This document shows, piece by piece, positions 556 through 4,460 of a DNA stretch of 13,175 nucleotides. A program made the translations under genes and the position numbers. The DNA comes from a bacterium (GTDB lineage Bacteria; BMS3Abin14): positions 1-13,175 of the forward strand of contig JARGFV010000073.1 of assembly GCA_029210545.1 (NCBI GenBank), written 5' to 3'. The notes under the pieces were generated by a model that was given only the letters and a program-made list of their open reading frames with translations, was not told the origin of the DNA and searched no databases. The first letter of the stretch is position 1, and the number at the start of each line of letters is the position of its first letter.

Positions 556-1533
556 ATGGAGCAAGTGAACAGAAAAACGATCCTGGATACGATCGGTCAC
601 ACGCCCATGGTGGAACTCGTCCGGATGAACCCCAACCCGGCTGTGCGTCTTTTCGTCAAGCTGGAGGGGAACAATCCGGGGGGGTCGGTCAAGGACCGTG
701 TCGCTCTTTACATGATCGAAGGAGCCGAAAGGCGGGGCGAGCTTAAACCGGGAATGATCATCCTGGAAGCCACCTCGGGCAATACCGGGATCGGTATCTC
801 TTTGGTGGCGGCCTGCAAGGGGTACCGGACAGTTCTCACCATGTCGGAGGGAGTCAGCATCGAGCGCCGCAGGGTGCTTTCGGCCCTCGGAGCGGAGATC
901 ATCCTCACTCCGGAAGCCCACGGCACCGACGGAGCCATCGTAGAGGCCCGGCGGATGCTGGAAGAGGCTCCCGGGATCTACTATATGCCGGACCAGTTCA
1001 ACAACCAGGACAATATTGAGGCCCATGTGGCAGGTACCGGCCCTGAGATCTACGAACAGACCGGTGGGGAGGTGGACTGGTTCGTGGCGGGGATAGGGAC
1101 CACCGGGACCCTTATGGGCGTTTCCAGGTACCTCAAGGGGGTCAAGCCTTCCGTTTCCATCGTGGGTGTTGAGCCGAAGATGGGGCACAAGGTGCAGGGT
1201 CTCAAGAACATGTCGGAGGCAATCGTACCGGGGATCTATGAGCCGGCGGAACTGGACAGGAAGGTCCTGGTCCAGGACGAGGATGCCTACGAGACATCCA
1301 AGCAGCTGTCGAATCAGGAGGGGATCTTCGCGGGGATGTCCAGTGGGGCGGCCCTCAAGGCGGCCATAGACCTTTCGGCCGAACTCGATTCGGGGACCAT
1401 TGTGGCCCTGCTGCCCGACAGGGGAGATCGTTACGTGACCACGGTGCTTTACTGTAACGAGAGGTGCCGGAAGGCCCTGTGCCGTGTGGAACAGTGCCTT
1501 GAGTGCCCCGGGATGAACGTCCAGGACCTGTGA
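556..1533 (+). CDS. cysM: Cysteine synthase, CysM type (O-acetylserine sulfhydrylase B)
   Basis: This 325-residue PLP enzyme of the cysteine synthase/CBS family should convert O-acetylserine and a sulfide donor (sulfide or thiosulfate for CysM) into cysteine in the cytoplasm. The PLP lysine lies in NNPGGSVKDR (about K46), the phosphate-binding loop is TSGNTG (73-78), the substrate region is DQFNNQDN, and the C-terminal motifs are GIFAGMSSGAA and LLPDRGDRY. The order and wording follow CysM more closely than CysK. ATG 556 is preceded by AAGGAAAGG; GTG at 565, after GGATGGAG, is a credible alternative. An in-frame extension to TTG 472 is not conserved-looking. The last 26 residues are unusual, with five cysteines (about C300, 304, 309, 314, 317). 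The gene appears monocistronic. Confidence 0.93.
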   Translation: MEQVNRKTILDTIGHTPMVELVRMNPNPAVRLFVKLEGNNPGGSVKDRVALYMIEGAERRGELKPGMIILEATSGNTGIGISLVAACKGYRTVLTMSEGVSIERRRVLSALGAEIILTPEAHGTDGAIVEARRMLEEAPGIYYMPDQFNNQDNIEAHVAGTGPEIYEQTGGEVDWFVAGIGTTGTLMGVSRYLKGVKPSVSIVGVEPKMGHKVQGLKNMSEAIVPGIYEPAELDRKVLVQDEDAYETSKQLSNQEGIFAGMSSGAALKAAIDLSAELDSGTIVALLPDRGDRYVTTVLYCNERCRKALCRVEQCLECPGMNVQDL

Positions 1534-1617: not shown

Positions 1618-1641
1618 TTCGCCTGGATTTCGTGTTCGCCT
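1608..1641. repeat. 17-bp perfect tandem duplication
   Basis: GGATTTCGTGTTCGCCT occurs at 1608-1624 and again, identical and immediately adjacent, at 1625-1641. The first copy overlaps the right arm of the inverted repeat downstream of cysM. The second runs into the -35 element of the promoter at 1641. Confidence 0.9.
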
Positions 1642-1669
1642 TGACATTGCCGGAAAGGTTGTGTAATCT
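1641..1669 (+). promoter_or_regulatory. Sigma-70-like promoter upstream of a candidate small RNA
   Basis: TTGACA at 1641-1646 is a perfect -35 consensus. A 17-nt spacer separates it from TAATCT at 1664-1669 as the -10. A start near 1676 would produce a short transcript that ends at the T-tract finishing at 1740. No plus-strand gene follows for more than 3 kb, so the promoter does not serve an obvious protein gene. Confidence 0.65.
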
Positions 1670-1675
1670 TTCACA

Positions 1676-1740
1676 TTGAAGGGAAGGGCGCTTCTCTTCA
1701 GGGGGGGACCCGGGATAGAGATATCCCGGGTTTCTTTTTT
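1676..1740 (+). ncRNA. Candidate ~65-nt structured small RNA
   Basis: Downstream of the promoter at 1641-1669 the transcript would open with a 9-bp hairpin. GAAGGGAAG (1678-1686) pairs with CTTCTCTTC (1691-1699), one G-U pair, with a GGCG loop. A single A and a run of seven G follow (1701-1707). The transcript closes with a terminator hairpin and U-tract (1708-1740). Promoter, two compact hairpins, an unpaired G-rich linker and an intrinsic terminator within 100 bp are the layout of an autonomous bacterial small RNA. The G-run could pair with C-rich targets (inference). I do not recognise the family. An alternative is that these are only transcription-termination elements between the convergent cysM and ptsP. 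Confidence 0.5.
1708..1740 (+). terminator. Intrinsic terminator of the candidate small RNA
   Basis: ACCCGGGATA (1708-1717), loop GAGA, then TATCCCGGGT (1722-1731) form a perfect 10-bp stem. It runs directly into TTTCTTTTTT (1731-1740). This is a textbook plus-strand intrinsic terminator. Confidence 0.8.
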
Positions 1741-1769
1741 GTGCGCCCGGGCGCACAAAAAAGAAACCC
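1728..1769. repeat. Perfect 42-bp palindrome
   Basis: Two 21-base arms (1728-1748 and 1749-1769) are exact reverse complements with no spacer. Each arm starts GGGTTTCTTTTTTG and ends at a GCGCCC/GGGCGC centre. The left arm overlaps the right half and T-tract of the terminator at 1708-1740, so the two RNA folds are mutually exclusive. Confidence 0.92.
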
Positions 1770-1884: not shown

Positions 1885-1932
1885 TCTTCAGAGATCGGCT
1901 CGGATAAACATGTTTCAGCCGATTTCTGAAGA
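1885..1932. repeat. Inverted repeat spanning the ptsP stop codon
   Basis: TCTTCAGAGATCGGCT (1885-1900) and AGCCGATTTCTGAAGA (1917-1932) pair at 15 of 16 positions around a 16-nt loop. The right arm is the last codons of ptsP (Ser-Ser-Glu-Ile-Gly and part of the stop); the left arm is non-coding. On the minus strand it would be a 3'-end hairpin. No T-tract follows. Confidence 0.85.
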
Positions 1933-4227
1933 CTTGAACATCACCTGTTCGCTGATCATCTGCTCGAGGCGGGACATGATGCGCCGGACTTCGGCTGAGG
2001 TGCCGGCCTTCAGGGCTCTCCGGGCGGCTCGGAGGCAGTCCTCATGGCGGACCAGGCGGATGGAACGCTTGATGAGGGGGATGGACGCCGCGTTCATGGA
2101 GAACTCGGTGGCCCCAAGGCCGATGAGGAGGGGGGTCCAGATGGGATCAGCGGCGATCTCCCCACAGATACCGACAGGGATTCCCGCATCTCTGGCGGCT
2201 TTCGTTGTCATTGCGATGAGAATCAGCACGGCGGGGTTCATGGGATCGTACAGGTGTGCGACCCTTTTGTTGTTCCGGTCCACCGCGAGGGTGTACTGGG
2301 TCAGGTCGTTGGTGCCGATGGAGAAAAAATCGACCTCCCTTGCCAGTTTGCCTGCCAGGTGGGCCGCGGAGGGCACCTCGATCATGAGACCTACGGGCAC
2401 CGATCCACTGAAGGGGACCTTGGCTCTCTTAAGCTCACGTTTCGTCTCCTCAATAAGCCGTTTGACCCCCAGGACCTCCTCCAGGGTGGACACCATGGGA
2501 ACCATGATGCTTACCGGCCCGTGGCGGGCCGCCCTGAGGATCGCCCTGAGCTGGGTCTTGAAGATATCGGCTTTTTCCAGGCACATCCGGATAGACCTCC
2601 ACCCCAGGAAGGGGTTGTCCTCCCGGAGCAGGTTGAGATAGGGGATGTTCTTGTCCCCTCCCACGTCCAGCGTGCGGATCTTCACCGGTTTTCCGCCCGT
2701 CCCCTCCACCATGGTGCGATAGATACGGTACTGCTCGTCCTCGGTGGGAAGGATGGAACGGGCCATGAACGGCAGCTCTGTCCGGTACAGGCCTATCCCG
2801 TCTGCTCCGTAATAGTCTACGAACTTCAGGTCGGAGAGGAGTCCGGCGTTGGACATAAGCGCTACCCTGTATCCGTCCAGGGTGACCGCCGGCAGGTCCT
2901 TCTCCGCGACCAGTTCTACAATGTGCCTCGTGTAGTCGTCAAAAAGGCGGCGATACTCCTTGATGACGTTCTCATCGGGGTTGATGAACAGACTCCCGGT
3001 GTTTCCGTCCACGATGAGGAAATCGCCCGGCTGGACCACTTCGAGCAGTTCGTCGATCCCGACAATGCACGGGATGCCCAGGGAGCGTGACAGGATGATA
3101 GCGTGGGATGTGTGGCCCCCGGCCGAGGTGGCAACACCCTGAACCAGTTCGGTGGACAAGGTGGCAGCGTCAGAAGGAGTGATGAGCCTCGTGACAAGGA
3201 TACCTTCTTCCGTGAAGTGAAGGATCCCGTCCCTGGTTTTGTCGGATAGCAGCCGGATGATCCTGCGGCCGATGTCCTCGATATCCACGGCCCGGTCTTT
3301 CAGGTATGAGTCGTCGATCTGCAGGAAGCTCTTGAGGTATCCGGCAATGACCCTTTTGACAGCGTAAAGTGCGGTGCTCCCGGTATCGATGACCTCCAGG
3401 ACCTTCTGGGTGAACCCCTGGTCCTCCAGCATCATGAGGTGGATGTTGAAGATGGAGGCGTCTTCCTCGCCCAACTGCTGCTGGACACGCTCCCGGAGAG
3501 CTTCGATCTCCTTTCTTCCGGCCAGGATCACGTCGGTAAACCGCTCTCTCTCGCCGTCGATATCCTCTGTCTGTTCCTCTACCAGATAATGGAGATCGTC
3601 ATCGGTCTCCATCAGGACCGCCGGTCCCATGGCAATGCCGGGAGTGGCCGGAGTCCCATGGAACACCAGGGAACGCCGCGCCGGTTCCATGGACGGTTGA
3701 GGCGAGGCTCCTCCTACGGAGAGCTCCCTGAGGAGCCTGGCGTTGGTGACCACACCGGCGACCTGTCCCGCGATGGTGTTGAAAAACTGGAGTTCCTGGG
3801 CGTTGTATGCCCGGTTTTCGAGGTCCTGGACGACAAGGACTCCTATCGGACTGCCACGGCTGATGAGGGGTACCCCGAGAAAGGTCCTGTATTTTTCCTC
3901 CCTGGTCACCGGGAAGTAACGGAAACGCGGGTGTTGGTGGGCGTCCTGGACTACGAGCGGGGTCTTCGTCTCGAAAACAAGGCCGGTCAGGCCCTCCGAG
4001 GGGGGCATGTCCACCCTGCCGATGGCCGAGTTTTCCAGTCCCTCTGTGGCCACCAGGACGAGCTTGTTCTTCTCCTCGTCGTAAAGATAAAGGGAGCAGA
4101 CGTCGGTGTGCATCTCCTGTTTGACCATGGCGACGATGTTGTCCACCGTCTCACGAAAGTCGTGAGAATCACTGATGAGTCGTGTGATCCTGGCGATCAG
4201 GTTGAGCTGATCCCTCACTGGGCCCAC
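1915..4227 (-). CDS. ptsP: PEP-protein phosphotransferase PtsP (nitrogen-PTS enzyme I, EI-Ntr)
   Basis: This 770-residue cytoplasmic protein should autophosphorylate from phosphoenolpyruvate and pass the phosphate to an HPr/NPr-type carrier in the regulatory nitrogen PTS. An N-terminal GAF sensory domain covers about residues 10-165, after which the enzyme-I core begins. The phosphorylated histidine lies in GGHTSHAIILSRS (H375). The PEP-binding barrel follows, with GLYRTELPFM (about 479-488), IGTNDLTQY (637-645) and the catalytic cysteine in ICGEIAADP (C688). Length fits the GAF-fused PtsP group rather than sugar-PTS enzyme I (about 575 residues). GTG 4227 is chosen because AGGAGAG lies 5-11 nt upstream. 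The gene is convergent with the candidate small RNA and has its own promoter. No NPr or EIIA-Ntr gene is nearby. Confidence 0.96.
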   Translation of the reverse strand: MGPVRDQLNLIARITRLISDSHDFRETVDNIVAMVKQEMHTDVCSLYLYDEEKNKLVLVATEGLENSAIGRVDMPPSEGLTGLVFETKTPLVVQDAHQHPRFRYFPVTREEKYRTFLGVPLISRGSPIGVLVVQDLENRAYNAQELQFFNTIAGQVAGVVTNARLLRELSVGGASPQPSMEPARRSLVFHGTPATPGIAMGPAVLMETDDDLHYLVEEQTEDIDGERERFTDVILAGRKEIEALRERVQQQLGEEDASIFNIHLMMLEDQGFTQKVLEVIDTGSTALYAVKRVIAGYLKSFLQIDDSYLKDRAVDIEDIGRRIIRLLSDKTRDGILHFTEEGILVTRLITPSDAATLSTELVQGVATSAGGHTSHAIILSRSLGIPCIVGIDELLEVVQPGDFLIVDGNTGSLFINPDENVIKEYRRLFDDYTRHIVELVAEKDLPAVTLDGYRVALMSNAGLLSDLKFVDYYGADGIGLYRTELPFMARSILPTEDEQYRIYRTMVEGTGGKPVKIRTLDVGGDKNIPYLNLLREDNPFLGWRSIRMCLEKADIFKTQLRAILRAARHGPVSIMVPMVSTLEEVLGVKRLIEETKRELKRAKVPFSGSVPVGLMIEVPSAAHLAGKLAREVDFFSIGTNDLTQYTLAVDRNNKRVAHLYDPMNPAVLILIAMTTKAARDAGIPVGICGEIAADPIWTPLLIGLGATEFSMNAASIPLIKRSIRLVRHEDCLRAARRALKAGTSAEVRRIMSRLEQMISEQVMFKSSEIG

Positions 4228-4375: not shown

Positions 4376-4455
4376 TTTCATATTCCACATTTCAGGTTCC
4401 AAAGAAGATCAGTGTTGTAAGTCCCTATCTGGAATTTGAAATTTGGAATGTGAAA
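4376..4455. repeat. Long imperfect inverted repeat between radC and ptsP
   Basis: Arms 4376-4401 and 4430-4455 are reverse complements at 22 of 26 positions, with a 28-nt loop. Both are built of GGAAT/TGAAAT words. The segment 4427-4449, overlapping the right arm, is also the direct-repeat partner of 1860-1882. The element lies just past the radC stop and upstream of the ptsP promoter. It could be the 3' hairpin of the radC message. Confidence 0.8.
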
Positions 4456-4460
4456 TTGCG

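Follow-up and report, generated by a model that had tools for sequence, protein, structure and literature searches.

A predicted small RNA gene facing ptsP, conserved across six genera of a small bacterial phylum

Single-base runs in a small hairpin RNA are familiar from 6C RNA (RF01066), whose C runs sit in loops. The cyanobacterial RNA Yfr1 is 54-69 nt long, occurs phylum-wide and folds into two stem-loops around an ultraconserved segment (PMC2190773). This segment, ACUCCUCACAC, is located in an unpaired linker of 16-20 nt. RoxS/RsaE of Bacillus and Staphylococcus is a trans-acting sRNA that is repressed by Rex, for which there is a site in its promoter region (PMC5419742), and it acts through C-rich segments.

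The locus described here is located in a window of 13,175 nt (the whole stretch of DNA that was analyzed), where an orphan sRNA gene had been proposed. The locus is like Yfr1 in its size, in its two stem-loops around a conserved segment, and in its phylum-wide spread, but its seven G stand directly between the hairpins and are predicted to be paired. The wiring proposed for it is identical to that of RoxS/RsaE, with Rex binding here as a prediction. Its conserved segment, however, is G-rich, since the predicted RNA contains G7 and has no C-run outside the CCCGGG stem. With 6C RNA it shares the single-base run in a small hairpin RNA, although the sole 6C match is sub-threshold (18.4 bits vs 47) and on the wrong strand. 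No Rfam family reaches its gathering threshold in the window, and a relaxed Rfam search of positions 1630-1790 returned only sub-threshold matches, the best of which are microRNA families on the palindrome described below. Searching the literature for an sRNA at ptsP turned up Pseudomonas papers only. The unit is very likely a real, undescribed sRNA gene of 65-70 nt. Taken as a whole, it is best explained as an autonomous, dyad-switched and trans-acting sRNA gene, to which we give a probability of about 0.6.

Layout of the locus and its distribution

The predicted RNA would be transcribed from its own sigma-70-type promoter and end at its own terminator, giving a transcript of 65-70 nt made up of two hairpins (Table 1). 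Its start is placed 7 nt past the -10 hexamer, near 1673-1676. The original prediction was right about the consensus -35 hexamer with its 17-nt spacer, the run of seven G, and the perfect 10-bp terminator stem with its T-tract. It also described a first hairpin of 9 bp, which is indeed present but has a stem of 10 bp, and it overstated the -10 as good: TAATCT agrees with the consensus at only 3/6 positions. A generic consensus scan listed neither the sRNA promoter nor the terminator, and the weak -10 explains why the promoter was missed. Our own terminator finder lets a stem continue into the T-tract by way of G-U pairs, and it also missed the terminator because the G-run pairs with the U-tract by G-U. 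The same stem extension may lie behind the miss in the generic scan, and this predicted closure of the G-run on the U-tail is a concrete feature that terminator scans can overlook. Downstream, no plus-strand gene of known type is found before trpE at about 5952, confirming the gene-free stretch claimed at the outset, and the gap is filled on the minus strand by ptsP and a radC-like gene.

Table 1. Features of the predicted sRNA locus and its neighbors (positions in the window)
Feature	Position	Strand	Basis or remark
-35 hexamer TTGACA	1641..1646	+	sequence; invariant in every homolog with a readable promoter
Weak -10 hexamer TAATCT, 17-nt spacer	1664..1669	+	sequence; hexamer differs among genomes
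Dyad TTGTGTAATCTTTCACAT overlapping the -10, candidate operator of a Rex/Crp-type repressor	1659..1676	+	
Predicted sRNA, about 65-68 nt	1676..1740	+	conserved unit, models R1/R2
5' hairpin, 10 bp (1677-1686/1691-1700), loop GGCG 1687-1690	1677..1700	+	folding
G7 run	1701..1707	+	7-8 G across all homologs; predicted closure on the U-tract
Intrinsic terminator, perfect 10-bp stem ACCCGGGATA/TATCCCGGGT (1708-1717/1722-1731)	1708..1731	+	repeat I4
T-tract TTTCTTTTTT with conserved internal C (1734)	1731..1740	+	sequence
Perfect 42-bp palindrome over the terminator 3' arm and T-tract	1728..1769	.	repeat I1
ptsP (GAF-domain phosphoenolpyruvate-protein phosphotransferase), convergent, constant neighbor	1915..4227	-	
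Cysteine synthase (cysM/cysK type), variable neighbor	565..1533	+	

A DNA search detected the unit in relatives from the window's family. Class-level and phylum-level searches gave the same 12 genomes, so that in this collection the phylum amounts to one family. The unit, consisting of the TTGACA promoter, the hairpin, G7 and the CCCGGG terminator, is found in nine of these 12 genomes (G000, G001, G003, G004, G007, G008, G009, G010 and G011), including all seven with a completeness of 90% or more and nine of the ten with ptsP. It is conserved across six genera, and the conservation of promoter, hairpin and terminator that the original prediction asked for is observed. The unit persists even though its promoter-side gene changes. 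With the covariance model R1, G008 has two strong matches and each of the other eight genomes has one, with scores of 62-92 bits. Over a wider sample of 386 genomes, about 370 of them outside the phylum, R1 found no credible match beyond the family. Its four marginal matches there (25-30 bits) align mostly the terminator part, and the stretches read at the centers of these loci hold nothing resembling the unit. Weaker matches elsewhere within the family (<24 bits) were rejected as copies, several being the sRNA locus itself read on its reverse strand. The phage records searched gave no match.

The window's assembly holds one copy, and a mobile element was rejected since the unit is single everywhere except in G008. 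The two copies of that genome (L046 4031-4102 and L047 4069-4140) lie one beside a full ptsP and the other beside a 31-aa ptsP remnant, with assembly gaps (N) close to both. With this unit, a small, apparently uncultured phylum has a conserved sRNA family of its own that is tied to ptsP, the gene of the nitrogen-PTS enzyme, and the window and eight relatives provide a ready-made covariance model.

Predicted fold and the G-run

The 65-nt RNA folds with a predicted energy of -38.9 kcal/mol, against -21.3 +/- 3.1 for its shuffles (z = -5.8). In the two helices, 94.7% of the cells from eight distinct sequences are standard pairs, compared with just 38-57% in slid controls where the partner was moved by 1-3 columns; the alignment had been fitted to the model, so this statistic leans towards structure. 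Pairing by hand agrees in G000, G001, G003, G009 and G004; G003 and G010 each show a single mismatch. In G007, folding does not predict the 5' hairpin. The compensatory changes expected for both hairpins are present in one: three pairs of hairpin 1 are changed on both sides. The base of the terminator is near-invariant, with CCCGGG/CCGGG in all homologs, and its variation towards the loop consists of one-sided changes only.

The run of seven G had been put forward as a free targeting segment. In the minimum-energy structure of each of the eight distinct homologs, however, it is paired with the U-tract, and freeing it is predicted to cost 6.3-9.7 kcal/mol. The U-tract of every homolog contains a C as its fourth or fifth base, which adds about 1-3 kcal/mol to the pairing (1.2-2.6 computed). 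The free RNA would thus expose no targeting segment, its G-run being held against the U-tail by weak G-U pairs and a single G-C pair. The orphan sRNA reading is strengthened by the conservation of the unit, and loses both its good -10 and its exposed G-run. The RNA most likely acts in trans, and a C-rich partner RNA would push the U-tail off the G-run, since such a partner could displace the tail by turning G-U pairs into G-C pairs. That the G-run is a partner-binding element is a tentative proposal, to which we give somewhat less than even odds.

The promoter dyad and its candidate regulator

The -10 region is covered by a TGTG-N8-CACA dyad, with TGTG in eight of the nine genomes (TGAG in G010) and TTTCACA in all nine. 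When columns are counted back from TTTCACA, the half-sites are near-invariant and the spacer 5' of TGTG varies. The center of the dyad, which holds most of the -10, varies more than the half-sites do. In a promoter alone the hexamer should be kept more than its flanks, whereas an operator should keep its half-sites. Here the half-sites are kept over the -10 hexamer, from which we infer an operator, and the dyad quite probably is one. In each of the six genomes searched, the combination TTGACA-N17-24-TTTCACA stands at the sRNA, and it has only two further occurrences. An extended -10 (TGn) was rejected as the explanation of TGTG: it is possible in G003, G008 and G011, and elsewhere it is out of register if the -10 is TAATnT.

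The consensus of the Rex site is TTGTGAA-N4-TTCACAA (PMC2883068). The window's 18-mer differs from it by two mismatches and some relatives by more, with a departure at position 6 from A to T or C. Six genomes contain 47 Rex-like 18-mers with at most two mismatches against 17 for the reversed pattern, both counts including sites of other origin. Among the matches examined in these six genomes, none is a classic Rex site at rex or at typical Rex targets. Rex itself is encoded in all nine sRNA-bearing genomes, and its identity in G000 (G000:C54) is given by the NCBIfam equivalog NF003993 above cut-off. No Rex was detected in G006, a genome with ptsP and without the sRNA, though at 80% completeness the missing Rex is weak evidence.

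A Crp/Fnr-type protein such as HcpR could bind the dyad instead, as TGTGN-N6-TCACA agrees equally well with Crp/HcpR-type sites. Members of full-length size (at least 228 aa) are present in six of the nine genomes (G000, G001, G007, G008, G009 and G010). However, no strong match to a Crp-type helix-turn-helix was found in G003, G004 or G011, all of which have the sRNA and the dyad, and the cyclic-nucleotide-domain frames of these three measure only 85-181 aa. The presence of Rex in all nine genomes, together with the absence of full-length Crp/Fnr from three, favors Rex, and a Crp/Fnr-type regulator appears unlikely. Rex is the foremost candidate, at odds that we put a little short of even. 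On the preferred reading, transcription would be switched by a repressor that occupies the dyad across the -10, with the NADH sensor Rex as the most probable one, and the RNA would be made when the cell is over-reduced. Redox control of the sRNA is thus plausible, and the repression of RoxS by Rex gives such wiring a precedent. If Rex control is true, the NADH sensor would govern a second sRNA unrelated to the first, a sign that regulation of redox balance by sRNAs arose on more than one occasion. The full combination of a phylum-specific, redox-controlled sRNA, RoxS-like under Rex, with a poly-G shut by the U-tail and opened only by C-rich strand exchange, is improbable as it stands.

Upstream of the rex frame of G000 (L105 1027-1845, minus strand), and on its strand, is a gene with CxxCH motifs resembling a multihaem cytochrome c. 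A compound promoter is also conserved at L147 (about 1800), L148 (about 557), L142, L143, L144, L145 and L146, in which one dyad, TTGTG..TCACAA-like, precedes the -35 and a second, TTGTTA..ACAA, covers the -10. Downstream of it are one or two small frames in tandem, membrane-protein-like and about 45 aa long (MLEFITMLSVIAMVFCAATVFVALLAGGLLK...), and a Pfam scan of two such proteins from G000 gave no match. This promoter may share its regulator with the sRNA.

Convergence with ptsP and competing readings

Every examined copy of the unit runs towards the 3' end of a convergent ptsP, or in the case of one G008 copy towards the ptsP remnant. The promoter-side gene is a cysteine synthase in the window, in G001 and at one G008 copy, and is another gene in G003, G011, G004, G009 and G007. 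G006 alone among the ten genomes with ptsP has no sRNA. Its cysteine synthase gene is separated from ptsP by a gene that, as read from the sequence, is 2-hydroxyacid-dehydrogenase-like. Neither ptsP nor the sRNA was found in G002 and G005, which are merely 73-78% complete. Two other readings of the unit were rejected: the leader of a downstream gene, because a terminator and then the convergent ptsP follow, and a peptide gene, the homologs having no ATG in common and hairpin lengths that change by non-multiples of three.

The arrangement raises the possibility of a cis-antisense function, in which the ptsP mRNA would extend across the sRNA gene on the opposite strand and the sRNA would pair along its full length with this 3' end and set ptsP stability, or in which the convergent transcripts interfere. 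The constancy of ptsP as a neighbor in 9/9 genomes while the other side rearranges is consistent with this, as are the lack of a convincing intrinsic terminator on the ptsP strand before the sRNA in most genomes and a ptsP stop codon only about 42-44 bp from the sRNA in G001 and G009. But antisense pairing would be perfect for any sequence, which leaves the invariant G-run and terminator unexplained, and the spacing from the ptsP stop ranges from 42 to 297 bp among genomes; such a function is therefore doubtful. The invariance could instead reflect a protein partner or stability only, the conserved 3' half being a closed hairpin protected by its U-tail and engaged in no RNA pairing. Every homolog is predicted to form the closure, which the conserved C backs, yet the structure would tolerate other sequences and the G-run is kept at 7-8 G in every genus. 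We regard this as only marginally less doubtful than the antisense function.

Finally, there might be no RNA gene at all, just a terminator next to a chance promoter-like sequence. Terminators are common, the -10 is weak, and the promoter went unlisted by the scan. However, TTGACA, the dyad, the pairing of hairpin 1 and the G-run are kept as one unit across six genera, and since the nearest upstream gene differs among genomes, the unit is not the conserved terminator of one gene. Coincidence is thus very improbable, and the autonomous, trans-acting sRNA gene remains the preferred reading.

The 42-bp palindrome, which was absent from the original prediction, has no spacer, and its 5' arm is made up of the terminator's 3' arm and the T-tract. 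G011 and G008 have palindromes in the same place with changed sequence and complete pairing. The counterpart is imperfect in G001, only the outer arms are kept in G003, and none was seen in the sequences of G004 and G007. On the strand of ptsP, the palindrome would fold into a strong hairpin a short way past the stop codon of that gene. A role at the 3' end of ptsP is one possible explanation for it, and an origin by repeated template switching is another.

Other repeats surround the locus. At 1580-1614, after cysM, there is an 11-bp inverted repeat (GAAATCCCCAC/GTGGGGATTTC) whose loop contains a T-run, and behind it a short tandem duplication extends up to the sRNA promoter. Short repeats of the TGGAATTTGAAATCTGGAATT type are located at 1856-1883 and 4429-4457, and the one at 1856-1883 has many dispersed copies in the window's genome and in its relatives.
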